Of a DNA stretch of 64,000 nucleotides, positions 28,696 through 63,313 are shown piece by piece. Below the pieces are notes generated by a model. That model saw only the letters and a program-made list of their open reading frames with translations. It was not told where the DNA came from and searched no databases. The stretch's first letter is position 1; every line of letters starts with the position of its first letter. Position numbers and translations under genes: made by a program. Source of the DNA: Echinarachnius parma (lineage: Eukaryota > Echinodermata > Echinoidea > Clypeasteroida > Echinarachniidae); contig JBAMJV010008412.1 in the NCBI GenBank assembly GCA_037951105.1, positions 1-64,000 on the forward strand, in the 5' to 3' direction.

Positions 28696-28863
28696 ATGGG
28701 AAAGATGGACAGGAAAACCCGGAGCCAGAAGAAGCCTGGCAGGAAACAGTTTCAGAAAGGAAAGAAAGGCAAAAAAAACATCACGAAACTGAAAGGAAAA
28801 CAGACACCAGGACTGAAACGGGAAAAAGAGGAGATCAAACGTCTTTTGGAACAATATGATCAG
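28696..28863 (+). CDS. DDX10: DDX10 exon 1
   Basis: Codons 1-56, ending in [12 protein letters not shown] and donor gttagt. The N-terminus is strongly basic ([14 protein letters not shown]), like the nucleolar-targeting N-terminus of the family. An in-frame ATG 33 bp upstream is possible but less likely. Transcription start not determined. Confidence 0.9.
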
Positions 28864-31800
28864 GTTAGTTGTTGCTTAGCAAGTTTTGGTTTCAGCGGGA
28901 GCGCATCGGAAGCGCCGCCAAAACTCTGGGGTTGATACAGTGTGCATTCTCGCATACATTTCAGCGGCTTTCTGGTCAACAAATATGATTATGAAACTTC
29001 GTGATCTTTTAGATTGCGAGACAAACGAATATCACTAGCGATATTATTCTCGATGATTATGACTGTCCAACAATCAACAATGTACTGTTCAAGTTATAAA
29101 TATCTAAACTGTTCTTGATATTTCGGATACCAGATTCTAAACGTCTTCTTCAAATTTGAAATCCTCTTTTCAATTAATTTTGTTATGCTCCTAAATTTGA
29201 TGTGATGACTGATGAGTGATGTGATGTGAATTTGATTATACAATTTTAATTTTAATTCAATGAATGATGATTGATGCCATGACTTAGACATAGTTCATTT
29301 GAAGAGACATTTATGATTTAAAGGGAGGGATCCACTTTTGCAAGCCAAAATTCAAAAGTTGCGAGGTTATTGTCTTATATGAAAGGAAATGTCATTTAAT
29401 AGCATGCCTGAAAAAATTAGGGCTTGAAATCTCTTTTTCGTGGAGTTATAGACCTAAAACTGAATAAACTGAGGGACGTCGGTCAATTAGGTACACGTAC
29501 ATACGTATTTTCGGCCCGTGAGTAAGTTCGTACTAATGCTGTTAGGTAAACAAAAAATCCCGGCCCGTTCTCGGATCGTTAGAATTCTATATCGCTAACG
29601 AGATCTCGGATCGGATCGGATCTCGGAGAAAAAAAAAATTGCAATTTGCTCTGAAAAAATGCAGCGTTGTAGACTCATCTTTCTTGTTTTATATGGCAAA
29701 AATATTAATAATAATGACGTTTCGAGGCATGTACATATCAATTTTTACGGAAAAATAATATTCAGATTATTCAGAGTTTCGCAAGAAAAGTATTTTTTCG
29801 ATGGTTTGTTCGGCATCGCACCACACGTTTCACAGAAACTCAACCCGCCAATCGCGTGGAAAACCGCGCTTGTGAGCCACTGCCGGGCCACTGCCCTCAA
29901 AAATCGGCTATAAATTACCCTTTTAGGGAACCACACAATTCTGGTAATCTACTTACATGATAACATGGCATCTGAAAGCCGAACAGAATACAAAATAACC
30001 CCCCAAATCAAAGACAAAACTGCTGAATTATCGATATATTTCCAAAGAAAAAAATCGGATTACGGACGGCTAGGCCTCGAGAGAACTCCAATGAGTTAGC
30101 TAGCTATAGCTTGCATGCACATGCAACAAGTTATTAGGCGTTAATTTGGTCGTATTACTTTGCGTGTGTTATGGTGAACGTTTTTTCTTACGCGAGATCC
30201 CTCCGAGATCCATCCGCCGAAAATTGGGGAATTCCCGGCGGCGGATCTATATCTGCACACGCAATTATACAAGCAAACGGGAGCGGTGTAGTAATTTTTT
30301 ATCGATATTTTGCGCAATTGTTTTCATTGTTTAGGGGCATATTTTTGTTTCCGCCCAGCTATCAAACGCCAAGAAATCATGTAAGTAGAATATCAGAACA
30401 TTTTTAAATGTGCAAATGACAATAAAACGTATTCAGAGCCACATTTTGAATGCACTGGCTTATTAGCTCGATCATACAGACATCCAACAGACGTCTCCCC
30501 TCGAGTATCGGCGTAACTTTGATTGCACATCCGTCCACAACATCGTTCAAATGACTAGCAATTTCGCGCATCCTGTTCAATTTTCGACCACAAAACGAAC
30601 TGACGAACCAAGAATTTCTCCAAAATAACCACTCATAAAGTAAACAATATTGATTTCCCCATTTCTTATTTAAATTACACTACTTAATGGACTGTCAAAC
30701 ATACACATGTTCAATTATCACTGGAGAAAATGGGTCGGCAAAATCTTCCGATATTTTCTACCGAGAAAAAATATTTCTCGGATCCGTCTCGGAATCGGCT
30801 CGGAAGCCATTACCGCCGGGATCTCGGATCGGATCCGGATCGGATAACAGCATTAGTTCGTACATAGATTTCACGGAGTGCCAGATCGGTATGCATGACC
30901 CCTACGTGACCCGCGCTAGCTACGTTACCCGCGCATAAGTACTAATGTGTGAGCGTTTACCAAGCAAAATACCCAAACATCGCTTAAACTTACTACATGT
31001 AATTATATATTCTTTCTTTTTGAGATCTTTTTCCGTGACATACGTTAACAAATGTCGGCTTCACAATACCTTTTCGAGAATTCGTACTATATTGTTGTAA
31101 TATTATGCTAAATCAGTTGAACTCCTTTATTGACCGATATATAGTTTAAATGGAGGGACGCATTCGTTTTTCATTCGTAGAATCCAAATTAAAGGGCTGT
31201 TCGCTCTGATTTTTTTTTTGCGTGTTACATTGATCCCCATCCGTCAACTGAAAGCTGTTCAGACGTTTTGTAAAAGTGGACCTGTCCCTTTAACATGATT
31301 TATCATTCAAACATTTTTGTTACCATAGCACTATGTACAAACGTTCTGACTTGAACTTAAAGCATTGCATTTTCATTAGACTGTTTTTTGCCGAGAGAAA
31401 ACATAAAAATCAATATATCGTACCAGAAATTATTTTTTATCTGAATTATTACACGATTCAGAATATGGGATCATTATCTTTATAATCCAGAGTCGGTTTT
31501 GTTTGGATTGGAAATATCAGCACTTTTTTAGTGCGCAAACAAGTTCTGATCTCAAACATTCTGGCTACTGAGATCCAGCGAGTTGATAGGAAGAGCTAAG
31601 AGTATGAAGGAAATATGTATTAGGAATTTTTTCTACTTTGTCCTTAAAAACACAATTTGTCATTATTTGTTCTTTTTCTTTAGATAACTGCTGCTGATGT
31701 GGAAACATTCTCAGACTTTCCCCTAAGTGAGCGAATAAGTTATAGTCTTTTGGACCCAGGGGGCAGGGGCCCGATTACGGACCAGCGACATTTACCATGG

Positions 31801-34800
31801 TATTTAGCATCATTGGCTCTAACTCATCAATGTCAATATGCTAGAATAACATACAAATTAACATGACGTAGCAGAGCACACATACCGCCCCCACTCATTT
31901 AACCATAAAGGATGACACAAGCATATCTAGAGATCAGTGGAACTAGGGCTGGTCCTGGGTCATGATTGTGCTCCCGGCCACATGTTGCCAAGCACCCACC
32001 AAGATCCAGAGAGTTGCCATCTAGGAGAAGCTATGGAGGAGATATGTGGCAGGAATTTCTTCTACTTTGTCCTCCTAAAACACAATTTGTCATTTTGTCT
32101 TTTTCTTAAATAGACAACTGCTGCTGATATGGAAACGTTTTCAGACTTTCCCCTCAGTGAGCGAACAAGTTAAAGTCTTTTTGACTTATGTTACCAAGCA
32201 CCTACTGAGATCCAGAGAGTGGCCATAGGAGAAGCTCTGAAGGGAATATGAGGCAGGGGTTTCTTCTTTGACTTTCCTGTACTTAATTCTTGTATGAAAT
32301 CACAATTCTTTGTTCCTTTTCTTTAGATAACTGCTGCTGATATTGAAATATTTTCATGCTTTCCTCTGAGTGAAACGAGCAAGTTGTAGTCTTGTGGAAT
32401 TTGGTTAGCAATCCCCTACTCAGATCCAGAGAGTAAATCATTTATAAGATAAAGTCCTGAGAAGAAATGCAGGCACTGCTATCAACAGTTGATGGTTCTT
32501 TCTTTTAAAAGCCTCTTCTTCATATCTTACAATACATTTTGACCTCTAAATGTTCATATTCTCTAGATAACTGCTGCTGATGTGGAAACATTCTCAGACT
32601 TCCCTCTGAGTGAGCGAACGAGGTCTGGTCTCCAGGATGCTGGCTACCAAGCACCCACCGAGATCCAGCGAGTCGCCATAGGAGAAGCTCTGAAGGGAAA
32701 TGATGTCCTTGGCGCAGCAAAGACCGGCTCGGGGAAGACACTGGCCTTTCTCATTCCTGTAAGATGCCTTCATTTTATTATTTGTTGTATATTACTAAAT
32801 GTGTACATGTGTTTAACAGCATTATGACAAAGAGAGGCTGAGTAACTCACAATTTGCCTAAATTGGAACACTTTTGTAAAATCAATTTCAAAACTTGAAC
32901 AAAGAGAATATATTAAAAGGAAATTAATTTGATTGGAGATTGTCGTTGCAGATCATAATAACTTTTGTCTACTTGTAATATTTGGGATTGAAGGTGCCAA
33001 GATTTTTATAAGAACATTTAAGAAAAAGTGTGATATTATAAATCATAACTTCACAAATTTCCCTTGATGATTTTGATTGAAATATGTGCAAGACATTATT
33101 TTATGACATACAATGGTGACCTTGCACTATAATATAGTCAAAATCTAATTTTGTGTCTTTTGTTTAGATACTAGAATGTCTCTATCGCAACTCTTGGTCT
33201 GCGGTGGACGGTTTGGGGGCCTTGGTCATATCACCGACGAGAGAACTGGCCTATCAGACTTTTGAAGTTCTGCGCAAGATTGGAGCGCGGCATGACTTTT
33301 CTGCAGGACTCATTATCGGGGGAAAGGTATGAGACTGTCAAGTTCCTGTCTTTAAATGGTGGAGATGTTGTGGCACGATCAGATTTAGCGCTTGACATCT
33401 AATCTGGGGACCCGAGTTCGAACCCATTTGATGCCGCGGCTTTTTATGTGCAGGGCATTTATTCCACATCGCTGCTCTCTACCCAGGCGTATGAATGGAT
33501 ACTTGGTCTGGTGTAAAATTAGCATGAAGCACCCTATATACTGTAGCTTGGGCTTGTATATTCTCCTGGGAGTTGAGATGGTGCGTAAGATAATTGTGTG
33601 GGTTTGAACTCTACCTTATGACTAGTGCTGTAACCGATCATCGGATCGGCATCATACATCCGATCATACATGATCGGACCGTTTTTCCCGATTTCCGATC
33701 ATGCCGAAAAAATCGGAAGATCGGATCGGCAAAAAAATCCGTTTTTTTTTCTTTGGAAAATGATCCCAAAAAACATATTTTGGGAATATAAATGAATACC
33801 AAAGCAACATATATCCATATTAATAAGCCCAAGGTAATCTTGTATGGGTATGCTTTCATTTAAAACTGATTACCTCTCCTTTTACAAAATTATTCGCGCC
33901 GATTTTGAGCTTAGTCCCATGTGTTTCTGAAAGGTTACGCCAAATTAATTACATGGGACTAAGCTCAAAATCGGCGTGAGTAATAATTTTGTAAAAGAAG
34001 AGGTAATCAGTTTGAAATGAAAGCATACCCGTACAAGATTACCTTGGGCTTATTAATATGGATATATGTTGCTTTGGTATTCATTTATATTCCCAAATTG
34101 TGTTTTGGGGGGATCATTTTCCAAAGAAAAAAAAACGATTTTTTTTTTTTTTTTTTTTTTAATAGCCGATCATCCGATCCCGATCATCGATCCGATTTCG
34201 AAGATTGATAAAATTTTGCCGATCCGATCAAACGATCCGATCATCAAGGTCAGTTACAGCACTACTTATGACCAAGGGTAATAATGCGCCTCTGAATAGG
34301 GCACCTAGCTAGATGGTCCCCTATAAATGCTATATGTTATTATTATTGTTAAATGATATAAGTTATGACCTGAAAAGAAAAAAATCACAATATGATCGCT
34401 AATTTATCTTTAAAAAACAAAGAAAATGGCCTATTAGACTTTTAAATTTCTGTGAAGAATCTTTGAAGATTGGAGCTCAGCATGCTTTTCCATAAATCTG
34501 TAGGATTCATTATCAGATGAAATGTATCAAAATACGACGATCAAGTACGTATATAGATTACTAATTGTCCGCATAGTTGTGTTGCCCCTTCAGAATAAGC
34601 CTTAGGCTATAAAAAACAAAAACAGTTGATGCAACATTTTGCCATTTAATCCTCGTAGGATTTGAAGTCTGAGATGGAGAGAATCGGCAAGACAAACATC
34701 ATCGTGTGTACGCCTGGCAGATTGCTGCAACACATGGATGAGACTGCATGCTTTGAGAGCTGCAATGTTAAAATGCTAGGTAAGCTTTGACAAAAAAATT

Positions 34801-37800
34801 CTCAATATATTTTTAATTCAAGGCAGAGGGATCATTATTCTTTATACATGTACTAGAATAATTTATATGAGTGTAGCCGGCCGATCACATGCTTCTCACT
34901 CCTTCAAGCGTGAATATTTGTGCATGCAGAGTCTATAGAGGTAATTCCTGATTGGGATCAAATGTACAATAGCAGAGCTCTCCCTTAAAGGGATCTAGTA
35001 ACTTTTTGGCAAGTGCAAAAAGTGATGAGTGATTGGAGTGATCTGATATGTCCACAAAGTAACGTGTGAACATTTCACGTTAATTGGATGTTTTTTGGCT
35101 GAGATATGAGCAAAAATGCAAATTGATATTCACTAACTCATTGTACTTACTTTGTACACTGCATTAAAATTATCCTGTAGACAATTTCATATCTGAACAA
35201 TCGTAAATATCTTTTGAACGAAATGGAAATTTGAAAAACCGAAACCTGTCCCGTGCTTTTATTGTTAATATGAATATGATAAGGTATGAGAGAACCAGTA
35301 GAGTTCCAAGTAAGTTTTGAGGATTTGGACAATGTTACTATAGTCCCTTTAAGCTTTTCTTTCAGGTGGCCTAATTTACACACCAGATACAATCCCTCCA
35401 TAGACTTGTGTGTTGTAGATCCTAATTTGTTGGTGGCCAATACAAGAATTTCTAGCGGTTAATAAATTTGCCCTGAATAATTCATACTGGTTGTTTGTTC
35501 ACTGTTGCGCATGCATGCAATCTCCAGCAAATTATGCATTAATGAATGTACAATTTAGCAACATTAAAGCATGATTAAAACTTTTTTTTTTTAAGTAGTG
35601 ATCAGACAAAACTGGACAAAATGTACTTGCCTGAATTAAAAAGTAATTTTGTTTGCCTTTCTGAGCAGTTTTGGACGAAGCTGATCGCATCCTGGACCTT
35701 GGTTTCCAGGCAACGCTAGATGCGATCCTGGATCATTTGCCCCAAGAGAGACAGACACTTCTCTTCTCTGCAACACAGACCAAGTAAGTAGGAAATTTAA
35801 AGTTTATAGGGACTTACTTAAAATCCAGTTGGAATTCTAGAAGTTCCCTCATACCTTGTTGTATTCATCTTCACAATAATAGCATGGTTTTGGTTTTTCA
35901 AATTTCCCTTTCGTTAAAAAAAACGTGTACAAACTGAGTGCAATGAGTAAGTGAATATCACTTTGCATTTTTGCTCATTACTCGGCCATATTTAACATCC
36001 ATTTAACTTGAAATTTTCACACAACACCCAGTGGACATATCAGATAACAATAATAAACATTGTATCAACCACTCATCGCTTTTTGCTCATGTGAACAAAG
36101 TTACTATATCCCTTTAAGTCCTTCCCATTGGCTTTTCTACGATCAAAAAGCCTTCCAGAACGCTTTTCATTCAATCATAAAATGTCTCCATAATTAGGGA
36201 GTCATATGGACAATCAAAACTCATTTCAGTCTTCTGTTTATACCATATAGCCAAACAACAAGGCACAATCTGAATGTTAAAGCTTCAAGTGATGTTGGTT
36301 GAATTTGACACTTGAAATATGTTTATAAACTAGACAAATTATAATTTTTTCTTCAACAATTTGCAGATCAGTGCGAGACCTTGCCCGACTGAGTCTGCAA
36401 GATCCCAAGTACATCGCCGTCCACGAACACCACTTGCATAGCACACCTGTGCAGCTAGACCAGGTAAGAATGAACACAAGCCTATCTATTAACCCCTTTG
36501 CATTAGTTTGTGAACCAGTTGAACCATCTACAGTCAAACCTGTGTACATTGTGATATTTTCATTTGAGAAGGTCACTGTTTACCCTAGTGAAATAGGTTA
36601 AGATTTATGTAAGATTTTATCACTTACCATTGATTTTGACTACAATCGGAAAGCATTTCTGGAAGAATCATAATATTCCCTTTCGTTAAAAAGATATTTA
36701 CGATTGAAGTGTTCAGATTGTTAATTATCCACTGGATATTTATAACTGTGTACAAAGTCAGTGCGAGTGAGTTAGCAAATGTCACTTTGCATTTTTGCTG
36801 ACTACTTGGTCATATGACATTCAGTTACCATGGAATTTTCACACACATCACTCAGTGGACATATCGGATCATAGAAATACACAATTTATCAACTATTTAC
36901 CAGTTTTTGCTCATGTCTTAAACAAAGTAAGTAGATCCCTTTAATGGATCACTTTAAACGTGCTTCTCTTCTTGTCTTCCAGAGTTACATCGTCTGTGAG
37001 CTGGAGCAGAAGTTGGACGTCTTGTACTCCTTCATCAAGGCCCACCTGGACCAGAAAATCCTTGTCTTCATGTCCAGCTGTAAACAGGTAACATTTGATG
37101 ATTATGTTCTGGTACAAGTTGCTCCCCTGGGAGTGGAGAGAGTGCGTATTTAAAGGGACTTAGTAACATTGTCCAAATCCTCAAAATCCCAATTGTAATT
37201 CTAGCCATTCCCTCATACCTTGTTGTTTTCGTATTAACAATAAAAGCATGGGACAGGTTTTGTTTTTTCAAATTTCCCTTTCGTTAAAAAGGTATTTACG
37301 ATTGTAGCGTTCAAATGTTAAATTATCCTCTGGACCCCGAAAACCGTGTACAAAGTGAGTGCAATGAGTTAGTGAATATCACTTTGCATTTTTGCTCATT
37401 ACTCAGCCATATAACGTCCATTTAACTTGAAATTTTCACACAATACCCAGTGGACATATCAGATAACAACAATATACATTGTGTCAACCACTCATCTATT
37501 TTTGCACATTTAAGCTGGGGCATTTTTATACTTGCAAGTAAAATTCTCTGTTGACAAATTAAAATCCCCCCATAACTCTTCATGTGATGTAACAGAGAAA
37601 ATAAATGTCACAATAAGCTTGCACAAGTTAATCCAAGTGCTCACACACATGTACATGTGGTAATTTCAGTATTAACATGCCCCTCGAAATGAAACTCGCA
37701 AAAATAAATGGATAATTGTTGTAGACTGATGAAGCGATGTAATGATTTTTGATAATATCATATTCTTATTGTAATTTTTTGAAAATTTATCTAGGTGAAG

Positions 37801-40800
37801 TATGTGTTTGAAATGTTCTGCAAGCTGAGCCCTGGGATCTCTGTGATGGCTCTCTACGGCTCTATGCACCAGCTAAGAAGGGTGGCGGTCTACGAGGAGT
37901 TCTGCATTAGGGATTCAGCCGTCCTGCTAGCAACAGACATCGCTGCTCGAGGTTTAGGTGAGTACAGTCAAACACTGAATTCTGTAGAGACATTGGCCCG
38001 TATTCACAAAGGAGGTTTGTACAAACCCCGGTTCAAACTGCGGTTTACATCTATGGAATGCCAATTGTAAACTGATGGAGAGAGAATGTGTACCATCAAC
38101 ATTGTTAACAAGTAAGGAATTTACATTCTCTCTCCATCAGTTTACAATTGGCATTCCATAGATGTAAACCGCGGTTTGAACCGGGGTTTGTACAAACCTC
38201 CTTTGTGAATACGGGCCAATCTGTCTGTAAAAAGCACGTTAAAAAACATGTTAAGACCACGGTCATGGCTCTCTATGGTTAACATGCACCAGCTAAGAAG
38301 GATGGCGGTCTATGAAGAGTTCTGCATTAGAGATTCGGCGGTCCTGCTTGCAGCAGACATTGCTGCTCATGCATTGGGTACGTTGCCCAATTACCCATGA
38401 CCAGTGAATTTTTTTATTGTAATTGTTCACAATAGATTTTTAAAAACAGTTATCGTATTTTGTTGGTTCATTATTTTGTCGACAATGAAACAATGATCCA
38501 GGGAAACACAAACATGACTTTGTTTGGCTGAAAAACAAAATTATTGTAGAAAACTATATATACATTCTGTAAGCACCTTGTAACAAGATGTAGAATGTTT
38601 TAAAGGGGTAGTTTAGTTTTGGTAGAGAGGATGCTGCACATCACAATTTTGTTGTGAGGTAATGAAAAACTGAGTGATGAATTTGAGAGAACATGCAATT
38701 TTAATGGCAGAATAAACTTTATTTGGTCAAAATCGACCCAGAAACGGTTAAAATATCAATAAATATATCTGATCTTATAATTATTTGGGGCCCAAATAAT
38801 TAGATGATTTTGTCAAAAATTTAAAAAATGCTTACACTTTTTCAAAAATTTTCAAAAGCGTTTTTTAAATAGTTGTTGATGATCTCTCTATTTAATCATT
38901 ATTTCAATAAAACATCACATGCATAATTTTGTATGAAAAATGGTTGAAACCAATGCATTTTTAGAAAGCGCCCTCTTGTGTTTTAATGGCTCTTTTTGAA
39001 TGATAACAGCCTTTTTACTTAGTCATTTGTAATATTGTATACCTTTCGAGCATGGTAGAGTTATAACTATTAGTTTATAATGTTACTGTCCAGGTTTGGT
39101 CACTAAAGTTCAGCCTTACCAATACTGTACTACCCCTTTAACATATGGCAACAAAAAATAGTCTACAGATTTAAGTGTAAATAAAAATGTCAAGCTTTTG
39201 AGGTTCATTAAATTTCACTAACATAAAAAACCCACATAAATAAACTTAATTGGCCCACCAGGGAAAAAATGTACTTTGAGCGCTGATATCATATGTTTAT
39301 AAAGTCTTAAAATGCTTTTAGATTTTCCTGCTGTGATTGGGTGGTGCAGCTAGACTGTCCGGAGGATTCCAGCACGTACATCCATAGAGTGGGTCGAACG
39401 GCGAGATATGAGAAAGATGGGGAAGCTTGTACCAAAGTAAACATTTAATGTTAGATATTGTTTGGAATAATAATTCCTTTCTATATTTGGTCTTGTTGTT
39501 AGATTTCCCTGCTGTGAATTGGGTGGTGCAGCTAGACTGTCCGGAGGATTCCAGCACGTACATCCATAGAGTGGGTCGAACGGCGAGGTATGAGAAGGAA
39601 GGAGAAGCCCTGCTCGTGCTGTTGCCGTCAGAAGAACAAGCCATGCTCTCTGAGATGGAGAACAGGAGAATCCCCATCACAAAGATTCAGTGAGTATATT
39701 GCAGGGCTCCAGACTTATTTTTTAACTGGCCCTACTGGGCCAGTGAAAAAATTCTTCCCCTTTTCTGGTGGCCCGAAAGAAAAATTTCCTGGCCCAAAAA
39801 TTCATGAGTAAACTTTTGACTATTCAAAATATCACTCTTTCCTTATCAAACCTGTGATTATAGATGAAGAATGACATGGAAGAAAACAAGATTTTTCTAA
39901 TTTCGTCAGTCGGGTTGAAAATCTGTTTGCCCGATCGGACCACCAAAATGTGACTTTTATACATTTGTGCTGGCCCAAAGTGCAATTTCACTGGCCTCAG
40001 GCCAGCGGGCCAGTGCGAGTGTCGAGCCCTGTTAATTAATATCGGATGATTTTTGTAACATGCCCGTTATTATACCTTGAGGAATTGGAGATACCCTAAG
40101 TATGTAGTAGTCTTTCACTTTGGGTTGTATGCATCAAAGCATCATTCAATGTATTGTTGTAGGGATGTGTTGAAGCTAATAATTACACAAAAACTGCCTT
40201 AGCCACAATGTATTTTCCCTTATTTTTAGCTATAGGTAGACAAGCCTGCAACTATCATAATTTTATCCATTGGTCTATTTGTCAATGCGTTCAGAGTTGT
40301 ATCTCGGTATAAATATTTGGTTCCTCAATTTTCAAAGTGGACCCAAAGCAGAAGTTCAGCATAGAAATAGGTCAGCATTTGAATAGTTTATCACAAATAA
40401 TAAGAGAGCTTCCATCTATCACTACATTTAAATCACACTTAAAGACCCACCTTTTCCCTGTTTTGTGATTGATTATTAAGTTGATATTTTTATGTATAAT
40501 GTAATTATTAAGTTTTTGATTGTATAATTGTATTTCTGTGTCTTTGTAAGCGCTATGATACCCGCGTGAATAGCGTATTTAAATAACAGTTATTATTATT
40601 ATTATTATAGAGAAGAAGCTCCAGTCGTACTGTGCGCAGAGCATGGAGCTAAAGCAGTCTGCCCAGAAGGCTTTCATTTCCTTCCTCAAGCCTATGTACC
40701 TTTACACATTAAATATAGGAAATAAAGATAATTTGATAGTTTGTTAAATCTTTTTCACCTGTGGATATTTTCAGAGTGAACCCAAAGCAGAAATTTAGCG

Positions 40801-47690: not shown

Positions 47691-47703
47691 AAAAATAACA
47701 CTT

Positions 47704-48598: not shown

Positions 48599-48599
48599 C

Positions 48600-50470: not shown

Positions 50471-50632
50471 TGACGGACGAGCAATTATCGACCTCTAAAA
50501 TCAGTTCTACAGGTCCGACCGGGGTGAGTTATATATCAAAACATGCGGGAGACTTGAGAGAAAATAGTCATGAAGTTTGAACGTGAAATTCCAAGCGGTC
50601 TAGATGCACGTCGAAAACCAGTGGGATTAGGG

Positions 50633-51680: not shown

Positions 51681-51689
51681 ACTTCAAAT

Positions 51690-52354: not shown

Positions 52355-52733
52355 TTAAAGGTGCACCTGTAAAGTGTCAGATATTGCCCAAAATGATATT
52401 TGAGACTTCAATCCTATACCAAAATCATTGTAAGATATGTCTGAATGATGTGTGAAAGTTTCATTGAAAAAACACACTGCTTTCCTGGTTAAAAAGCGAA
52501 AATATGCGTCAGCTTTAAAAACTAATTACAGTATGATGCTTATGACCGTCTGTACATGTAGATGCTCTTGACTGAATGATTATCAATGATATATTCATAC
52601 AATTTGAAAAAATCTAACCCTATTTTATTCTTCTCTTACCATAAGCCAAACAACACGGTAGAAGAGAAATGGGGAAGCTCAAATAATTTTTTATGGAGTT
52701 AGACACTTTACAGGTGCACTTAATATCATGTTT
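52355..52733. mobile_element. TTAA-C MITE, copy 2
   Basis: TTAAAGGTGCACCTGTAAAG to TTTACAGGTGCACTTAA, with TTAA borders; same orientation as the copy inside exon-13 copy 1. Confidence 0.9.
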
Positions 52734-53219
52734 ACTAAATACAACCGTTCACGGCCATGAAACAAAAGGTTCTCCATCCTGCAATGGGAAAAAGACTTTT
52801 GCTGTAAATTTGTAGAGCTGTTCTTCAAATCAGCTCTGTGCAGCAATATGGAAAACATGTTGCACATAAAAATGACGATCTACAAACATGTAAGTACACA
52901 TCACCATATCAAGGTACCGTCAGGCAAGTAAAATAATGATCTCTCAATATCAAATAATTGACTAAACAGGTACATATATCTAATAAATCACACATTATTG
53001 TTTCCTACAAGACAAATACATTCTACTATACATACCGGCTCTTCAGCTGTGTGTTAATACAAAAAGAAAGACTTCGGTAACGATCTTACCTCATATAATT
53101 ACATCCATTATGATCATTATCAGCAAAATCGTGCATATTGGCAGCTTTATACAGGTATATTCCTATATTCTCTAGTTCTATTATTCCACTAGTCGGGCAA
53201 CATGGATTACACAAGCCTC
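52734..53219. other. Spacer, nothing recognised
   Basis: No supported features. Confidence 0.4.
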
Positions 53220-53485
53220 AATACCAACTTTTTCCTCTAATGGCCCGTTTGGGTAAGTAAAATCATAACTTTTCCAATTTTACTTGCCCGAACAGAAAAT
53301 TTACTTGCCCTGGTACTTTTAGATCAGATTTACATGTATGAAATTATATTTTTCTTTCAAAGTTGAACAACTACTGTAGTTGCCCGATTGGGCAAGCAAA
53401 CTAGACAATTTATGCAATTTTACTTGCCCGACACCAATTTGTACTTGCCCCGGGCAAGCGGGCAAGTGCTAGTGTCGAGCCCTGC
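53220..53485. mobile_element. ACTTGCCC-rich repeat, copy 2
   Basis: Ends GTGCTAGTGTCGAGCCCTGC, with repeated TTTTACTTGCCCG blocks, as at 48600. Confidence 0.65.
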
Positions 53486-54430
53486 ATTACAGGATGCGCT
53501 TTTAAAAGACCATCTACAAAAGTATGTACATGTACATATTTAACTATATTACATAAACCAATGATTTTATCAAAACATACTCTGTACATGATTAATAGCT
53601 GTTTACCTTTGATACAAAAAGAAAGACTTTGGTACTGTTTAGTGGACTGGAGGTACTGTAAAAATCTTGCCGCATAATTTGAATACATTCAATTAAGAGC
53701 ATTCAATAAGACCTCAAAAGCAGTCTAATAAACTGGGGTGACATCAGCACACCAACTACTGACCGATCCAGCTGGAGAGTGATGACCGCCAGGTGTGTCA
53801 GACAACACAGGAAGTACATGTATATATTATTTTAAGTCTAACAAAGTAAAACAAATTTTTACTTCTGCCAGTTCAATGGAAGGTATATGGGACGTTATAA
53901 CTGCATTCTCTACCAAAGCATGCCCACGACTTGGCAGGCATGTCTAAAAGCACCGCTGCTATACACAAATTGCATCTAGAGCATCAGTTCTTTTAGTCAT
54001 GTATGCCAAGTAGTGGGCACACTTTGGTATAGAATGCCATCATCATAGGATGCATGAAGCAAACAAAAAGGGACCCCTTTACAGGTACATACATAAACTC
54101 TTTCTTCTCTCGAGTGCCAATCAACATGTGCACTAGCTGGTGTACTTAAAGTGCAAACAAATGGCGCATACATTTAATTGTCAAGTGGAACCGCTCTGTA
54201 ACGAGCTCTGTTATAACAAGATACCTGATATAGTGAGGTAATATTACAGTTCCAGGTTCTATGTATTGTGTGTTTTTAAGCCCTGATACAACAAGATACT
54301 ATCTGATATAATGAGGTAAATTCAATGGCATCCTCCAGTGGCGATCTGCTTACAAGGACCACCTTTTTTGAAGTCTCCCTTGATTGGTCTTTACAGACAG
54401 GTTTGACTGTGCTCTGAAATAAGCCTACAT
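53486..54430. other. Spacer or 3' UTR of the minus-strand gene
   Basis: No coding block. May include the untranslated 3' end of the WD40 gene. Contains a degenerate TA-type MITE end (ACAGACAGGTTTGACTGTGC) near 54410. Confidence 0.4.
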
Positions 54431-54434
54431 CATA

Positions 54435-54541
54435 AATTCCCGTCCTTGATGGAGCACAGTATATGAACGGTGCCATTGTCTGTACCAAGGATGGCCCAGG
54501 TGTTGTAGGGAGAGAACCTGTACGCCGTGATGTCGTCTTGA
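54435..54541 (-). pseudogene. Tandem copy of the end of the WD40 gene's last exon
   Basis: Directly downstream of the functional stop, an in-frame 35-codon segment reads DDITAYRFSPYNTWAILGTD, then NGTVHILCSIKDGNL and a TGA. It parallels DDITAYGFSPDNTRAIVGAD at 54548-54650. It is open but lies after the real stop. Confidence 0.9.
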
Positions 54542-54542
54542 A

Positions 54543-54940
54543 TCATGAATTACCGTCTTTGACGGTGCACAGGATATGCACGGTGCCGTCGTCTGCACCC
54601 ACGATGGCCCGGGTGTTGTCGGGAGAGAACCCGTACGCCGTGATGTCGTCGTTCATCTCCTTGAACTTGCCTACGAGGTGTTTGCTGTCCCCTATCTGCT
54701 TGGCGACGAGCATGCCCTCGTCGACGCACGCCACCAACCCCTGCTGGAGGAAGGTCTTGACGTAGCCCCGCTCCGGGAGGAACTGCTCGTCCGGGATGCT
54801 GAGCCGGGAGAAGTTGCCCCGGTCCTTCTCCGTGTAGAGCTTCGTGCCCGAGGTGGGGTCGAGAACGCACACCATGTATTCGCCCTGCGTCTGCTCCTTT
54901 TGGCTTTGTCGTCTCGTGCGGGAACTGCGATTCCTGTGGT
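54543..54940 (-). CDS. WD40 gene terminal exon
   Basis: 132 codons plus TGA: basic start HRNRSSRTRRQSQKEQTQGE, then YMVCVLDPTSGTKLYTEKDR and a final WD-like AYGFSPDNTRAIVGADDGTV. GC content is clearly higher than in the surrounding sequence. Acceptor aaacag. Confidence 0.88.
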
Positions 54941-57900
54941 CTGTTTAATATACATACATGCAAATAAAAAAGTGGTCAATTTGATATTGTTGACAGATGA
55001 TGTTGATGAAGATGAAAAGATGGTGAAAATAGTGAAGATTATGCCGATGATGAAGATGATGATGATGACGATCATGATGAAGACGAAGATGTTAATGGCA
55101 GTGGTGATTATGAAGATAACATTGATTATTATTATGATTATAATGATGATGATGATGATAATAGTGATTATTATGATGGAGATGGTGATAATGGTTATAA
55201 ATGTAGTTTATATCAAAATGAACCTTCTAATTTATTGAACCAATTTCAAGACTCGCCCCCATTGGTGATTTTCCTCCATTCGAGACACATAAAGATTATG
55301 TATCAAAAACCTTGAGACTTCCAAATGTTTATAAAACCAACTGTGACAATCACCCCCACTGGAGATAGTCCTCCATTTGAAATGAATAAAATGGATAAAC
55401 ATTGGTGGAATCAAAGATTCAAAACAGCCGATCCTCAATGCATGCGCAGCTGAAGTTTATAATAGACGTACAGTAGCAACAATCAACATAGAGAAGACTG
55501 GAGAGTCTACAGGAGTCATCCTTCTTTTCCGTACCCTGATGTGATGTGATGTGATGAAAAATACATACAAATTTATCAAACAAATTTTGAGACTCGCCCC
55601 CATTGGCCATAGGCCTCCATTTGAGTTGCATACAGATAACGAGCATGTTCTTAAAGTGGTTGATGGAGTGAAGAACCTTTAAAGATGTGATTTTCAAACA
55701 GAATTGAGTGTATATCTCGTGAGCGGTAGAGACATCCAAATATTTATCAAATCAATTTTGAGACTCACCCCCATTGGCCATAGGCCTCCATTTGAGATGC
55801 ATAAAGATGACGAGCATGTTCCCGAGGTGGTTGAGGGAGTGGAAGCGGGTGTCTTGAATGTCCAGATCCACCTCCATCAGAACGCTGGCCTTCTGTGTAC
55901 ACCAGACCTTGATCACGGGTGAGCTGTGATGATACTCCCCCGTATCTGCATCGGTGTAAACAAAATAAAATGGTGCAATAAAATGTGTGATCATGCTGCG
56001 CTCATTAATCCTAGATTAGTTTGTGCAATGAAATTTGTAAATATTCTACATTAGTTTAAACTGAAATGAGAACATTGCCATCAAGATTCTGTAGGCCTTT
56101 GCGGCACCTACATGTAGCTTAGACTTTGATCAAGGGTGAGCTGTGATGAAACTCCCCCGTTTCTGCATTGGTGTGTAAATAAAGAAAGAAAAAAAGAAGG
56201 GTAATAGAACTGATGCGATCCAATAAAATACCCCCCCCCCCCATTTTATCCTAGATTAGTTTGCACTGCTGATAAAATTACTTTATTGGAAATCTGAGAA
56301 CATTGCCAACATGATCATGTAGACAGTGCTGTCAACCTTGATCAACAAAAAAAGAACAGAATTTGATGAATTGTCACAAAAATTAGCTTTACCAGAAAAG
56401 CATAGAAATTGCACATTAGGGTGGGGAAATCTTCATAGCTTACTTGGTACTGAAGTTCGAACACAAAATTGGACGCTCAATTTGAGTCGTTACTGGTGCC
56501 CATAACGTGCTTATTACAGTGATTAGTGCATCTATTCTAAATCTTCAAATTGGCCAATGCTTTTTGAATTGGGGCAGATTTAGTTTATTTCACTCATTTA
56601 AATGTTAATTTTTTTGGGAAAAAAGTAATAAAACTTCAAAAAATTTTACTACCGTGATTACATTGAAAAAATGTAACAATTACAGCAAAAATGGAATGGT
56701 TGGCAGCTCTGTGAAGGTCTTTGCAGCACTGAAGACTCTGGGGTAATGGGTGTGCTTATTTACTGCCCTCACATGTTTGTAAGTCTAGAGATCCAAGTCG
56801 AGATTTATATGCATACCTTCAATGACAGGCTTGAGGGAATCCCTGCGTGTCTGTATGGACATGGTGGCAAGCTGCTTCTGATCTGTACTCAGAGCTGCGG
56901 CAGTGATCTGCAAGTCAAGAACGTTACAAGAAACTATAATAAATAGTTAATTTTAAAACAATTTTGAAATATTCCCCCTAAAATAATACAATAAAATAAT
57001 AACAAGTTCCATTGGTAAAGCACATTATCAAAGCTCTGTGACTTCTAAATCCGTATTACGGTACAACAGTTTGATGAGTCAATCACGCATATGTTTGTAC
57101 GCATTGTGAGCAACGTTAACTCGTGTGATAATAACGCTCATCGGAAAGATTCAGAGCACAAGTGATTACCGCACACAGCAGGACCCTACGCTAGCATGCA
57201 TTGCATTTCATTACTATAAGCTGTCAACGAGTCACAAAATATTTCTTATCCATAGGCCTTGCATGTATCTCACTATACATCTTACTGTTGACACCGAGTG
57301 TCTAGAGGCATCTGCATTTGTAGTACAATGTATGATCAATCTGTCCCTATGCGATTTACATAGAATATTTCATTATTTTAAACAAATCTGCCATACATTT
57401 TTTCATTTTTTTAAAAACTAGGTCAGATCTTCTTTATCTTTGTCACTGTGAACAACATTTACGAGAAACAGCGAACTGTACTCGACGTTAGGTGCGACCA
57501 GCAGCAAGCTGGAGTGAACAAGAACAAAAGGATGGGGGAATACAATGGAGGAGGTGTAAATGCAATAGCAGGCTCGAGTAGACAGGAACAAAAGGAATAG
57601 TGCTGATGAGGGCTACTGGGGATGGGAGAATGTGTCAAGTAGTGGCTTTAAAATTTACCTGGAACTGGGGCCCATGCTGAAACTCCTTGACGCTGGTTGT
57701 GTATCCATCAAACATGGGGATCTCATCTGGGTAGGTCTGCCAGTCGATTATGCAAGCAGGGGACATGATATCGTAGAGGAAAACGTTTCCGGGCTTGTTG
57801 GTCGTCGTGAAGCACGCAAGCGCCAAGTTGTTGAACGTCACAAATAGGTAGTGCGGATTCACATACCGTATCAGCCTGCAGTTTTCAAACGTTTAAAAAG

Positions 57901-60900
57901 TTAAAGAGATTGAGAAATTACAAAGTTTGTTACAAAGTCAACAAATATGAAATTATATTGATTTAGTAGGGCAAGATGTCGCTCTTGTTTGGGGTCTCCT
58001 TGGTTTCTCCATATATTGAAATCTCTCTTCCGGACTTAAAAAACAACCCATTTTCTCTATCAGATTCTTAGAGAGAACACCAGCAATTTCCAAGGGCTAG
58101 GCAATAACAAATTCACCTCCAATTCTCGTTTTTCCCCCCCAAGATCTTCATTTTCTTACCTGTGGTGACACTCGATGGTGATCTTGTCGCTCTTGTTTGG
58201 GGTCTCCTTAGTGTGCCAGATGTTGAAATCGCTCCCATTGCACGACGCAATCACAAAGGTGCAGTCATTGGAGATACACTCCACCTTCTGCAGTTCTGTA
58301 GAAAGAGACAGATTAATGACTTTAAATTTGACTTTTATTTATTTATTTATTTATTTATTCATGGTATTTATTTTGAAACTGCTAGATGCATAGAAGAAGG
58401 TTGATTGGCAGAGCGACACTCAACCATGGTGATGTCGTCAACATATTTATAAACGGATGTGCCTTCAGGAGCTATCGCGTCATTGATCATCGCAAGAAAG
58501 ACCACAGGGCCGAGGCGAGTTCCTTGGGGCACCCCAGCATAAGTTTCAGACCACTCAGATATTGTTGACTGGTAGCGTGCACATTGCTGGCTGGGGAAAA
58601 GGAAGCTTATACTGACTTTTTCCTGGAGAATTCAAATATGATTAAGAGTTTTTTCTTTGAAAATAGCATTTAAAAAAAAAACACTCACTCGAAAAACACC
58701 ATTGGGAATGCCCCCCCCCCGCCCCACTTCTCCCACCGATTTGCCCAAATACTGTTCGCATTACACATAAGGCGTATAATATTGCAGGCTGAAGTAATCA
58801 TTTGCCAGTATAGATGCATGCAGTTTCTGCCTGCAATGACGTCATTTGGCCACATCTCTGAAATCACAAATTTAAGGGGTGGGGCTTAGCAATTAGCCTC
58901 TGAAGGCTTTTAAACTGGTGAAAACATTGTACTTCTTATACGAACTGGAGCTAGATTATTTCCTGGCCGCTTTGAGTGCTAGTATGACCCTAAATAAAGA
59001 ATTAAAGGGGACCACCAGGCCAAAGAACAACATATAATTATATGTTTTGGTACCATTTTGTGATATCAAATAGATACCCAACATTTTGCAAAGGGTTGTG
59101 TAATCCATAAACAATGCAATTAACTACCACCTAGGGAACTACGGAACCAGTATTATTTCATGGTTCCGTACACGCCAATGCTATTCACGCGTACGTTTGG
59201 AGACAATAGAATCCCGGACGATTCGTTAGCTCTGGACAAAGTAGTCTTCGTACATGCAGACCCATGAACGCATGCTTTAGAATCATATGGTGATTGCGTT
59301 TTCCAATTATATTTTTTTTCCTGGAAACATAGTTTTGTAAACGTGTTGATGGAATGGACTACTAAAGATATTACCTTTCATTTATAAGAATATTATCTTT
59401 GGGTGGTGGTACCCCGTAATGCTTACCACAGGTGGGCAGTGACGCGAGGATCCTGGTCGGGTGCGGCACACTCTGGTTGAGATCCCACAGGATGCAGTTC
59501 TCTCCCTTCGCTGAGGAGACCGCCTTAGAACCATCTGGTGAGAACACGCACCCACTCACCGCACCGTGATGTACCTCTTGGACCTACAAACAAAGAAGTT
59601 GAGGTACCCAATTTGTTTGGAATGAGAACTTAAATTGGCAGAAAAATTGACATACCGTATTAGCTGGTGTATAAACCGCACACCCAACTTTGGGTTGTCA
59701 TTGAAGGGGAAAAAAAACATTTTCTAGATGATGAAACTGCTGGGAATCTTTGCAACATAATCAAACTATACACACATTCAATGCTTTCCCCTTGAACTTT
59801 TGTAAACTTTTAGTAGACAAAACAACACATGTCACATACTTGTTTCTGATTGGAGCATAATTCATAACAGAAAAGCCTATCAAGCTTTTTACTCCACATA
59901 AAATGATACTATAGCCATGTGTAATTTTCATGAAATAAGTTTTCTCTATTTCTGTGTATTAACCACTCCCCCTTTTTGCAAGTTCTTCTGTATGTGAAAA
60001 CGTGCGGTTAATACACCGGCAAATACGGTACCCGGTATCATGTATCAGCATCATTGCAAACACCACAATCATCATCATCATGCCGCTTGGAAGGAATGCT
60101 CCCATGGGAGTGGAAATAGTTCACACAATGTGTACTGGTTTGCATTGTAATAGATGATATTCTATGATGATCATGATAGACACTATATAAATCAAACCTA
60201 TTATTATTATTTATTATCATCGCACACCGCCACCACCAACACCATAATCACCATCATCATCGCCATCACCATCATCATTGCAGCCACCACAACCATCATC
60301 ATCATCATCAACATCAACATTAACATCATCATCATCAACATCAACATCATCATCATCATTATCATCATCATCAACATCACCATCATCATCATCATAATCA
60401 TTGCAACCACCACCACCATCCTCCTAATCATCATCACCTCTCTTCCATCCTCTCCCTCATCATCACCAACGCTACATTCATCAATAATTTCCTTAAATGA
60501 AATACCTTCAGATGGCTTGCTTTGCTTCCTGTGATGTGCTGCGTGTCCCATATCCTGACAGTGTGGTCCTCACTCCCCGTGGCCAGGATACAGTACTGGG
60601 ACGTCGGCATGCAGAAACTGCCGCACTTTACCCGACCCTTGTGTCCCTCTAGCTTGCACCACTCGACGTCCTTTAGAAATAAAACCTGCACATGCGAACA
60701 CGAACATGATAGTAAAAATTAAATGGCTACCAAACATTTTTCAATCGTATTGAATACTAGGTGAAGGTTTAAATCACTTCCTTTTGCTAGAATACAGATA
60801 CTGGGACGTCGGCAAGCAGAAACTGCTGCACTTTACCGGACCATTGTGCCCCTCTAGCTTGCACCACTTGACCCCGGGGGGGGGGGGGGGGCACTCATGT

Positions 60901-63313
60901 ATAATGTAAGACCGGTATGTGCCGCTTAAAAGAACCCCGTTTTCACACCCGATCGCAGCTCTAAAGATACCCGATTTTCAAAAACTGCCGCTCCATAGAT
61001 CCCCGGAATGACTTGGCTAGGTAGTTGAGTAGAGCCAAGTCCATTATTCTTCTTCTAGTTCGGCTCCATAGACCCCCGGAATGACTTGGCTAGGTATTTG
61101 AGTAGCGCCAAGTCCATTATTCTTCTTCTAGTTCGGCTCCTTGGACCACCATTTTAGCCTTTTTGATAGCTCCAAGTCTATGTATTTTGTAGTTTCGGGG
61201 TTTTTGTAGCTCCAAAGACCCTATATTTTGTGCTTGTAGTCAGCTCTTCAGACCCCCATTTCAGAGTTCCGTGCGGCACACCCCCGTCAAAAAATAATTT
61301 GAGTGCCCCCACCGGGCACTTGACGTCCTTAAAGACATAAAACCTGCCCTCACAAACTCAAACATTACAGTTATGAACAGAATATAATTTCCAAGAATAT
61401 ACATATCATTTTGTATACTAGGTGAAGATTTAGGTTACTCCATGTAGCAAATATAAAGTTCTGGGATGTCAGCTCGCAAAAGAGCAGCACTTTACAAGAA
61501 GCTTGGGCCCCTCCAGTTTGCGCAACTGGACATCTTTCAGAAATAAAACCTGCAGAAGAAATTAGTACTATCATTAAATTATTTTTGTTATCATCATACA
61601 GTCAAACCTGCTTTATAGAAAGACCAATAACGACCAGCAGATTTTCTTGCAATTCTTGGATCAATGAAATATTGGTGGCCCGAGAGCTAATTTTGTTGGG
61701 CCAGCCAGCATGTGCTGATTTCGAGCCCTGATTATATAATCATTATAAAGTTAAACATGCTTATAAAGACCAATGAAGTCAATTTTCAGTTCCTCTTTTA
61801 CAAAGCGTCTGAACAATTTCCAGTTGACGGATGGGGATGAATGTAACACACAAACAAAATCAGATCGAACAGCCCTGTAATTTGGATTCTATGAATGAAA
61901 AATGAATGCGTCCCTCCATCAAACTATATATCGGTCAATAAAGGAGTTTAACTGATTTAGCATAATATTACAACAATATTGTACTTATTCTGGTATAGGT
62001 ATTGTGAAGCTGACATTTGTAAATGTATGTCACGGAAAAAGATCTAAAAAATGAAGAATATGTAATTACATGTAGTCAGTTTAAGCAAGGTTTGGTTATT
62101 TTGTTTAGTATCCGCTTATGCCGTTGTTATTTATGCGCGGGTCACGTAGCTAGCGCGGGTCACGTAGGGGTCACGTAGGGGTCACGCATAGCGATGTAGT
62201 ACTCCGTGGAATCCGTGTGCGAACTTTCTCACCGGATGAAAACACGTATAATGCACAATTAAATGTTGGACGACGGTTTATTAGTTTTAGGTCTATAACT
62301 CCACGAAAAAGAGATTTCAAGCCCTAATTTTTTCAGGCATGCTATTAAATGACATTTTCTTTTATATAAGACAATAACCTCGCAACTTTTGAAATGTGGC
62401 TTAACACACATCTTAACTCCATCTCTTCCTTCATGGTAAGCGACACGATTACGGCAAGTCTCGGGCAGAAGATGGCCGCCCCCGAGTAGCAGTTATCATT
62501 ATTATAATTATCATTTTATTATCATTATTAAGTCAAAGATGCTTAATATAAAGACCAATGAAGTCCAGAGATGAAATCTCACAGACTTTTTGCAATAACA
62601 TAAATCTTACCTCAACTTCCTCCTCCCCGGTGAGCGACACGATGACAGCAAGTCTCGGGCAGAAGATGGCCGACCCCGAGTGGCAGTTGAGGGATAGCTT
62701 GTGCCCGATGAAGTTCCGCTCGCTTCCCTTGACCGGCCAGCGGAAGGTGCCGTTGGGGAGGACGCCGCAAAGAAACTTGCTGTCGTTGGAGAAAGCGAGC
62801 GACGTCTCGGGGAGCAGGTCGTGTGTCAAGTTATCCGTCTCTAGCCTCTTCAAAACCTGCAAAACAAAAATAACAAATTAGGAATTCATATAAATCTGTT
62901 TCCGTTTGTTTGTTTCTAAATTTTTCAAAACCTGCATAACACTGTCATAAAAAGTTAGAAATTCAGATTATAAAACTTCCTTCAAATGGATATAGCATAT
63001 ATACAAAAATATATAAAACTTGATGTTGCTGGAGAAAGATAGCGATTTCTCATATGGGAGTAAGGTAGTTTCCAACAGCTTCAAAACCGGTAAAACATGC
63101 AGAATTGAAAATTTATATTAATGAATACTCTACAAATGTATAAAACATATTATAGGGGAAACTTTCTCTAAATCAAATAATACTAAAACAATTTGGTTTC
63201 TAGATCAGTAGGTTACTTACTTTCTGTGCTGAGATATCCCAGAGGAAGATGTCTTTGTAGGCCACGGCTAGCAGCTTGCCGTCAGGGGAGAAGGCCACCT
63301 CCTTAGCACGACA
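54543..63313 (-). CDS. WD40-repeat protein, last nine exons (5' part outside window)
   Basis: Exons (5' to 3'): 63313-63221, 62856-62611, 60685-60506, 59583-59427, 58295-58160, 57875-57659, 56907-56817, 55945-55769, 54940-54543. Phases agree, giving 564 codons to TGA. WD40 hallmarks: VAFSPDGKLLAVAYKDIFLW, LEGHKGRVKCGSF...TGSEDHTVRIWD, VSGCVFSPDGSKAVSS...NCILWD, CTFVIASCNGSDFNIWH, and AYGFSPDNTRAIVGADDGTV. The protein looks like a multi-blade WD40 propeller tail such as those on NACHT/STAND or scaffold proteins, but I do not recognise the orthologue and no catalytic domain is in view. It converges on DDX10. Decayed copies of at least five exons lie in its introns or just past the stop. Confidence 0.88.
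54980..55200. repeat. GAT-rich low-complexity sequence
   Basis: Interrupted GATGAT/TATGAT runs in the last intron of the WD40 gene. Confidence 0.7.
55245..55680 (-). pseudogene. Decayed copies of the WD40 gene exon at 55769-55945
   Basis: GACTCGCCCCCATTGG and CCTCCATT(T/C)GAG recur at about 55251, 55348 (CACCCCCACTGG) and 55593. The last copy continues through GACGAGCATGTTC-like GATAACGAGCATGTTCTTAA. All have stops or lack the acceptor half. Confidence 0.85.
55769..55945 (-). CDS. WD40 gene exon 8 of those visible
   Basis: 59 codons: TGEYHHSSPVIKVWCTQKAS, LMEVDLDIQDTRFHSLNHLG, LVIFMHLKWRPMANG. Acceptor gatgcag, donor gtgagt, phase 2 in / 1 out. Confidence 0.87.
56108..56178 (-). pseudogene. 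Decayed copy of the start of the same exon
   Basis: TTTGATCAAGGGTGAGCTGT and ACTCCCCCGTTTCTGCATTG mirror the sequence at 55908-55950. Confidence 0.85.
56817..56907 (-). CDS. WD40 gene exon 7 of those visible
   Basis: ITAAALSTDQKQLATMSIQT then RRDSLKPVIE, ending in phase 1. Acceptor ttgcag, donor gtatgc. Confidence 0.85.
57659..57875 (-). CDS. WD40 gene exon 6 of those visible
   Basis: LIRYVNPHYLFVTFNNLALA, NVFLYDIMSPACIIDWQTYP, KEFQHGPQFQ: one WD-type blade. Acceptor ctgcag, donor gtaaat. Confidence 0.88.
57968..58025 (-). pseudogene. Decayed copy of WD40 exon 58160-58295
   Basis: GTCGCTCTTGTTTGGGGTCT and CCATATATTGAAATC mirror 58186-58230. Short and lacking both splice sites. Confidence 0.82.
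58160..58295 (-). CDS. WD40 gene exon 5 of those visible
   Basis: LQKVECISNDCTFVIASCNG, SDFNIWHTKETPNKSDKITI. Acceptor tctacag, donor gtaaga. Confidence 0.88.
58388..58592 (-). pseudogene. Non-LTR reverse transcriptase fragment
   Basis: Minus-strand reading ETYAGVPQGTRLGPVVFLAM then KYVDDITMVECRSANQ holds RT motifs B and C (GVPQGTRLGP, YVDD). No complete element around it. It differs from the LFADD type at 9.2-12 kb, so it is a different LINE group. Confidence 0.88.
59002..59418 (+). mobile_element. TTAA-D MITE, copy 2, abutting a splice donor
   Basis: TTAAAGGGGACCACCAGGCC to GGGTGGTGGTACCCCGTAA; the right TTAA is mutated to GTAA. Its edge lies about 8 bp from the exon end at 59427, immediately after the donor hexamer. 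Confidence 0.85.
59427..59583 (-). CDS. WD40 gene exon 4 of those visible
   Basis: VQEVHHGAVSGCVFSPDGSK, AVSSAKGENCILWDLNQSVP, TRILASLPTC. A clear WD blade with GCVFSPDG and ILWD. Acceptor tttgtag, donor gtaagc. Confidence 0.9.
60085..60220 (+). mobile_element. SINE 3' fragment
   Basis: GCTTGGAAGGAATGCTCCCA then GATCATGATAGACACTATAT and a TTATTATTATT tail, as in the SINE at 5531. Confidence 0.65.
60221..60480. repeat. CAT/ATC microsatellite
   Basis: Interrupted CATCAT and CACCAC runs of 260 bp. The Met-rich and Ile-rich open frames are artefacts. Confidence 0.9.
60506..60685 (-). CDS. WD40 gene exon 3 of those visible
   Basis: VLFLKDVEWCKLEGHKGRVK, CGSFCMPTSQYCILATGSED, HTVRIWDTQHITGS: a textbook GH...WD repeat. 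Phase 0 both sides. Acceptor gtgcag, donor gtattt. Confidence 0.92.
60788..61346 (-). pseudogene. Decayed copy of WD40 exon 60506-60685, split by a hAT insertion
   Basis: 60788-60872 (CTGGGACGTCGGCAAGCAGA...) and 61317-61346 (CACTTGACGTCCTTAAAGAC) together match the 5' part of the functional exon. The middle 444 bp is a hAT insertion with its own target duplication. Confidence 0.9.
60873..61316. mobile_element. hAT-type insertion inside an exon copy
   Basis: CCCGGGGG...GCACTCA on the left, TGAGTGCCCCCACCGGG on the right, and perfect 8-bp duplication CACTTGAC (60865-60872, 61317-61324). It contains two tandem 74-bp units starting CGGCTCCATAGA. Confidence 0.82.
61450..61550 (-). pseudogene. 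Second decayed copy of WD40 exon 60506-60685
   Basis: AAAGTTCTGGGATGTCAGCT, CTTTACAAGAAGC, then GGACATCTTTCAGAAATAAA and the CTGCAG acceptor. Stops and indels throughout. Confidence 0.88.
61790..62404. mobile_element. TTAA-F MITE, copy 2 (inverted, eroded)
   Basis: CTCTTTTACAAAGCGTCTGA, CCAGTTGACGGATGGGGATG, GCGCGGGTCACGTAGC and TTTTTCAGGCATGCTATTAA all match the copy at 29318-31293 in reverse. It lacks the nested hAT, so it shows the empty site. Confidence 0.88.
62407..62497 (-). pseudogene. Decayed copy of the 3' half of WD40 exon 62611-62856
   Basis: TGGTAAGCGACACGATTACG and CAAGTCTCGGGCAGAAGATG mirror 62628-62690. GAGTAG replaces GAGTGG. Confidence 0.88.
62611..62856 (-). CDS. WD40 gene exon 2 of those visible
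   Basis: 82 codons: VLKRLETDNLTHDLLPETSL, AFSNDSKFLCGVLPNGTFRW, SLNCHSGSAIFCPRLAVIVS, LTGEEEVEV. Phase 0. Acceptor ttgcag, donor gtaaga. Confidence 0.9.
63025..63105 (-). pseudogene. Decayed copy of the 5' half of WD40 exon 62611-62856
   Basis: GCTGGAGAAAGATAGCGATT and CAACAGCTTCAAAACCGGTA mirror 62782-62860; divergent. Confidence 0.75.
63221..63313 (-). CDS. WD40 gene, first exon visible
   Basis: 31 codons, phase 0: CRAKEVAFSPDGKLLAVAYK then DIFLWDISAQK, a complete FSPDG...WD half-blade. Acceptor tctgcag, donor gtaagt. The gene continues upstream beyond 64000. Confidence 0.9.

Follow-up and report, generated by a model that had tools for sequence, protein, structure and literature searches.

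Partial, decayed copies of exon edges beside the exons of two convergent genes, and of other sampled genes, in Echinarachnius parma

Why should the introns of two unrelated, convergently transcribed genes be strewn with degenerate copies of their own exons? We addressed this question in a 64,000-nucleotide stretch of Echinarachnius parma DNA, hereafter the window (contig JBAMJV010008412.1, positions 1 to 64,000, within an assembly of 1.2 Gb and 14,790 contigs), in which DDX10 is followed by a WD40 gene on the opposite strand. A first-pass annotation, made from the letters alone, had pointed to the copies and proposed a regional or genome-wide tendency for exon-sized tandem duplication. We find that the copies are local, sense-oriented and partial, consisting of one edge of an exon, and that they occur beside about half of the exons sampled here and in other genes; they probably began as small tandem duplications, made in place and since decayed.

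Exon-edge copies in the window and in other sampled genes

Comparison of each exon with its surrounding region yielded 25 local copies in the window, 15 in DDX10 and 10 in the WD40 gene, which are 68–95% identical to the parent exon and lie on its strand in all 25 cases. The DDX10 count takes two exon 10 pieces as one, and exon 2 has five matches, two of which in our reading belong to a single split unit; the 25 exclude lysine-rich matches lying between exons 14 and 16, as well as a few of under 25 bases. All seven DDX10 exons named by the first-pass annotation (2, 3, 8, 9, 10, 11 and 13) have local duplicates, and its estimate of more than twenty copies, beside the parent and in the same orientation, holds. 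For the WD40 gene it had claimed at least five of nine exons; five do carry copies (W2, W3, W5, W7 and W8), but eight exons rather than nine could be defined. At E ≤ 1e-4, 12 of the 24 exons of the two genes have a sense copy within 1.5 kb and none of the 24 has an antisense copy, and the shuffled control that had been proposed (dinucleotide-shuffled DNA from 10 loci, 100 kb) gave 0 local pairs. With exons numbered as in the gene models given further below, the copies are as follows.

31530..32434, + strand: array of exon 2 copies upstream of exon 2, with homologous flanks for three units
31530-31597; 31684-31748 + 31988-32039; 32116-32251; 32327-32434, + strand: units of the exon 2 array, the joined pair being, in our reading, one insertion-split unit
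34424..34522, + strand: exon 3, 3′ part, downstream copy, 68%
38262..38368, + strand: exon 8, 3′ part, downstream copy, 86%, with 11/14 differences at third codon positions
39322..39426, + strand: exon 9, 5′ part (bases 1-106), upstream copy, 94%, spacing 181, flank not homologous
40336..40701, + strand: exon 10, 5′ part, upstream copy, with a 246-base insertion inside
41251..41325, + strand: exon 11, 5′ part, upstream copy, 71%
43134-43218, 43695-43789, 44048-44156, + strand: exon 13, 5′ parts, three upstream copies
44618-44712, 44784-44894, + strand: exon 13, 3′ parts, two downstream copies
54430..54537, − strand: W8 (last exon), 3′ part, abutting tandem copy, period 113
55598-55670, 55354-55390, 55257-55296, − strand: W7, 3′ parts, three downstream copies, flanks homologous
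56121..56160, − strand: W7, 5′ part, upstream copy, 92.5%
57977..58027, − strand: W5, 3′ half, downstream copy, 86%
60774-60872, 61437-61549, − strand: W3, 5′ parts, two upstream copies
62424..62494, − strand: W2, 3′ part, downstream copy
63016..63051, − strand: W2, short 5′-side upstream copy, 81%

In 64 of 67 pairs, a copy upstream of its exon corresponds to the 5′ part and a copy downstream to the 3′ part; we read two of the three exceptions as insertion-split copies, and for the third the exon end could not be fixed. Of the 10 upstream copies that were inspected, 8 keep the pyrimidine-AG acceptor, described earlier as often retained, and one more, at W7, has CAG one base off; among downstream copies, 4 of 8 still have the donor GT. 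The duplications are not exon-sized as had been proposed: the copies are partial, with a single pair of the 67 near full exon length, and their spacing is unrelated to exon length.

Homology extends into the adjacent intron (P < 0.05) in 12 of 22 window pairs when 70-base flanks are compared. With 60-base flanks it does so in 14 of 22 pairs, comprising 17 from the window and 5 from the other haplotype (3 of these 5 with homologous flanks), in a test run without five window pairs (exons 3, 10 and 11, one W3 copy and W8), none of which was significant at 70 bases. In the W2 unit d1 of the other haplotype, flank and exon part are equally alike (88%), and its junction has, by eye in the alignment, five bases in common with the parent. 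Retrocopies are rejected, as the first-pass annotation had argued in favour of local duplication at the DNA level: the copies are parts of single exons, local and sense, often with AG or GT, and include intron flank in about half of the pairs.

The pattern reaches well beyond the window. When exons were pooled, 34 of 68 had a sense copy within 1.5 kb and 0 of 68 an antisense one. Copies accompany 8 of 15 exons from random loci, in genes for an AMP-binding-domain protein, a TPR protein, an M1 aminopeptidase, a hydrolase and a kinase, and 14 of 29 Pfam-matched Cpn60_TCP1 chaperonin exons from six genes. These last genes, which we take to be of the CCT type, were sampled by Pfam match alone, every match within six retrieved stretches being used (29 of the 63 listed); their exons were trimmed to the longest stop-free part, and several lie near stretch ends, where copies may have been missed. 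The random-locus exons were recognised by codon usage, with Pfam confirmation at the level of the gene rather than of each exon, and the set is not blind, having been picked after local repeats of the same loci had been seen. Four of nine candidate random-locus proteins gave nothing in Pfam, and their 15 exons (6 with copies, 0 antisense) were kept out of the 68.

Among non-exon random segments, 129 of 500 have a sense and 79 of 500 an antisense match; for intron segments of the two window genes, copies excluded, the figures are 64 of 400 and 49 of 400, and in both controls the segments overlap one another, so that the counts are not independent. Local direct copies are thus about twice as frequent for exons as for random segments, and the contrast would be larger if antisense matches were taken as a measure of dispersed repeats. 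The exon bias is real, whatever its cause. Over 20 random loci (186.6 kb) we found 76 local direct and 30 local inverted repeat families. Local direct families number 19 in 28-64 kb of the window, a density of 5.3 per 10 kb, compared with 4.07 in the random loci, so of the proposed regional or genome-wide tendency, the part that concerns unrelated genes of the genome stands and a regional one is not needed. As far as sampled, the window genes are ordinary for the genome: they are not richer in copies than others (12/24 here against 22/44 elsewhere), and a property peculiar to them is rejected. The pattern is true and well ordered in every gene set sampled.

Two of the sampled loci carry arrays. 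At L014:7635-9401, eight upstream copies of a candidate exon start are stacked in 138/259-base units, in a gene without Pfam confirmation. At L012 (minus strand) 5164-5337, the last 24 bases of an aminopeptidase exon are repeated downstream together with the donor, in four copies about 65 bases apart.

Allelic variation, origin and decay of the copies

A second contig, C5401, is allelic to the window, with single-base differences of about 3% in introns and, over its positions 69000-108999, 40 insertions or deletions of at least 30 bases in about 37 kb; 5 of the 40 resemble neighbouring sequence, as tandem units would. C5401 has matching copies, at corresponding places, for 23 of the 25 in the window, the two W7 copies at 55354-55390 and 55257-55296 being not found there, where it is without a 397-base stretch. 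Unit number differs in three arrays: upstream of W3, three units in C5401 (spaced 195, 194 and 196) against two in the window; downstream of W2, two (spaced 191 and 194) against one; and downstream of W7, one against three. The exon 10 copy is unsplit in C5401, and the 246-base insertion is present in the window haplotype only; the copy described earlier as split by a transposon is split indeed, by an insertion that might be a transposon.

The same comparison bears on decay. Between haplotypes, the copies differ at 65 of 1,901 sites (3.42%), against 54.9 expected from their own local flanks, the introns at 527 of 16,409 (3.21%) and the exons at 80 of 4,185 (1.91%); the count leaves aside the stretch 60700-61434 and the two W7 copies without counterpart. 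In 13 DDX10 copies, 85 of the 181 parent–copy differences fall at third codon positions, near the roughly 45% that we reckon, by our own arithmetic, for a neutral copy and a constrained parent, and 8 of the 13 examined contain a frameshift or stop. With a haplotype divergence like that of introns and with 8 of 13 broken, the copies look, to judge by their sequence, neutral as a group today.

We consider it probable that the copies are local, in-place small tandem duplications in various states of decay. A duplication that broke once within an exon and once in the intron beside it would leave an intact exon and a partial copy, either upstream (5′ part and acceptor) or downstream (3′ part and donor), and would survive where the intact exon remains available for splicing. 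Microhomology-mediated duplication or replication slippage may be supposed to have produced the copies, the five-base W2 junction seen by eye being one instance, and a splicing filter may act on the products, with whole extra exons bearing two splice sites often spliced in and selected against. The copies would then decay as neutral intron, gain or lose units and sometimes be split by insertions. Copies of exon edges would stay recognisable for longer than intronic duplicates, with selection holding the parent still: because the parent exon is slow, nearly all the divergence of such a pair accrues on a single branch, whereas both branches contribute in an intronic pair. A frozen parent of this kind should account for part of the exon excess, and slow decay may be its main cause.

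Two explanations that would deny the copies this history fare poorly. Mis-joining of haplotypes in assembly, which the first-pass annotation had allowed for a few near-identical copies, could draw on the fact that the assembly is heterozygous, with both haplotypes retained as contigs at this locus, and on the two W7 copies not found in the other contig. The 23 copies present in both contigs bear their own mutations, however; copies are 68–95% identical to the parent and mostly broken where examined; and three arrays contain different numbers of units in the two haplotypes, so that mis-assembly does not account for the copies. We give this artefact next to no credence. Functional alternative exons, mutually exclusive or poison exons, are very improbable. 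The acceptors kept in 8 of 10 upstream copies speak for them, as does the look of the exon 8 and 9 copies, in which 16 of 19 differences are at third positions (69 of 162 in the other 11 copies), as though both had for a while served as coding sequence. Against them stand the intron-rate divergence of the copies between haplotypes, the frameshifts or stops in 8 of 13 and the lone pair of near full length; a functional tandem exon duplication would show frame, both splice sites and constraint, and these copies do not. Doubling of a whole exon 8–exon 9 block was considered for those two copies and dropped, since their order along the intron does not fit.

Several observations, the formerly coding look of the exon 8 and 9 copies among them, weigh against simple tandem duplication followed by decay, and two further processes have to be considered beside it. 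Flanks are not homologous in 10 of the 22 window pairs at 70 bases. Flank similarity is no better than chance for the exon 9 copy (94%) and for d1, the nearest upstream copy of exon 13 (95%), and at locus L015 an exon copy of 98% identity starts to diverge, by eye, just past the donor. Copies of 94–98% identity with unlike flanks are not expected of so young a simple tandem duplication and suggest exchange limited to the exon. Gene conversion confined to exons, keeping old copies parent-like after their flanks have diverged, would account for these three, and also for exon 13, where d1 is the most similar copy and yet lacks the homologous flanks that d2 and d3 have. We regard it as doubtful all the same: it does not predict the third-position excess of the exon 8 and 9 copies for a neutral copy, and many pairs have no need of it. 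The other process, a duplication mechanism that favours exons or proceeds in steps the size of a nucleosome (or of an Okazaki fragment), is a serious possibility, though not one that we favour. Nearest spacings fall within 155–230 bp in 26 of 41 exon-edge cases against 38 of 186 for random segments, a comparison that is optimistic because the random segments overlap. The median over all 41 is 202, as read from the list; 34 of the 41 have a median of 197.5 and quartiles of 182–214, with no link to exon length (Spearman 0.01), the remaining seven being 243, 292, 419, 526, 644, 1180 and 1259, and the haplotype arrays step at 195/194/196 and 191/194. Such clustering near 200 bp suggests either a nucleosome-sized process or a splicing filter against much shorter units combined with rarity of longer ones. 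Of the 19 local direct families between 28 and 64 kb, 13 by our count touch an exon, and a genuine preference for exons may therefore be at work; the exon bias (34/68 against 129/500) looks stronger than simple survivorship, part of the 129 random sense matches may be dispersed repeats, given 79 antisense, and with intron segments at 64 sense against 49 antisense little purely intronic tandem duplication is visible. On the other side, random loci also have spacings of 60–140 and above 300, splice compatibility could purge short exon-edge units, and the slow decay of exon pairs must contribute some of the excess. Joined together, these processes would describe a lineage with unusually active germline duplication in nucleosome-repeat units of about 195–200 bp, often at exons, in which about half of coding exons are flanked by partial copies that stay recombination partners, adding or losing units and occasionally exchanging sequence, a picture that we put forward tentatively.

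The two genes and their setting in the window

The parent exons are those of the following gene models, the WD40 gene, convergent to DDX10, being probably incomplete, with eight exons defined (W1-W8).

28696..47477, + strand: DDX10, 16 coding exons
28696-28863, 32567-32758, 33168-33326, 34659-34779, + strand: DDX10 exons 1-4
35669-35783, 36367-36463, 36983-37087, 37795-37957, + strand: DDX10 exons 5-8
39503-39689, 40775-40951, 41458-41803, 42461-42610, + strand: DDX10 exons 9-12
44340-44510, 45122-45196, 46218-46396, 47303-47477, + strand: DDX10 exons 13-16
54543..63314, − strand: WD40 gene
63221-63314, 62611-62856, 60506-60685, 59427-59583, − strand: exons W1-W4
58159-58295, 57658-57874, 55769-55944, 54543-54940, − strand: exons W5-W8

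A 15-exon DDX10 model, without exon 14, gives one full open frame; exon 14 (75 bases, 45122-45196) was placed using other echinoderm DDX10 proteins. The first 529 DDX10 residues are closest to sea-urchin DDX10, that of Diadema antillarum being 85% identical over 91% of them, with Lytechinus pictus at 83% and Strongylocentrotus purpuratus at 79%. The product of the convergent gene matches Pfam WD40 above the cut-off and the TEP1 second beta-propeller below its cut-off, and an S. purpuratus WD40 protein is 56% identical over 51% of the query. In a WD40 intron, 60990-61150 holds a 73-base tandem duplication (93%) of which both units read open, and which might be an unrecognised exon piece; C5401 is without a 93-base stretch there.

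Repeats of other kinds are also present. At positions 1-3293, degenerate units of 24-27 bases (GAAGTGTTAGTAGAAGAAG-like) are repeated in a long tandem array, and 6168-7214 comprises three near-identical (99%) tandem units of 348 bases. A repeat family of about 545 bases, with members at 12478-13024, 16206-16748 and 38599-39146 that are 91–93% identical and in both orientations, looks like a candidate mobile element; the last of these sits in the DDX10 intron between exons 8 and 9.

Known systems and what the copies may record

Tandem exon duplication, reportedly treated by Letunic et al. in 2002, and the mutually exclusive exons it can yield likewise place exon copies beside the parent in the same orientation, whereas the copies here are partial and neutral-looking and affect 34 of 68 exons. 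Intron gain by tandem duplication is said to have been the subject of work by Gao and Lynch in 2009. In one account (PMC2891723), intron gain by tandem duplication of coding sequence likewise involves duplication across coding sequence with copy ends becoming intronic; here existing introns grow, and as no new intron position is seen, on the view of this genome alone, we considered that route and did not adopt it. Small segmental duplications in Drosophila are frequent, 83.4% of them shorter than 500 bp, and rapidly eliminated, according to the abstract of PMC6380325, whereas old decayed exon-edge copies persist here, most of them in both haplotypes. The SpTransformer (Sp185/333) genes of S. 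purpuratus also show local tandem duplication and instability in a sea urchin, but there in one immune gene family and here in unrelated genes and random loci. Among the top-ranked matches of a literature search that mostly did not extend to subscription journals, nothing described exon-edge copies across a sea-urchin genome, which is weak evidence of absence. Known processes explain most of what we see; the density in this genome seems unusual.

Programs that predict exons in urchins may encounter many pseudo-exons whose splice sites look genuine. If half of exons carry partial copies beside a frozen parent, small tandem duplications would leave a readable record of their sizes, junctions and decay, one that would test how such duplications originate, for instance in a nucleosome-sized step or with a preference for exons, how well splicing copes with a second acceptor or donor, and whether sequence passes between exons and their copies.

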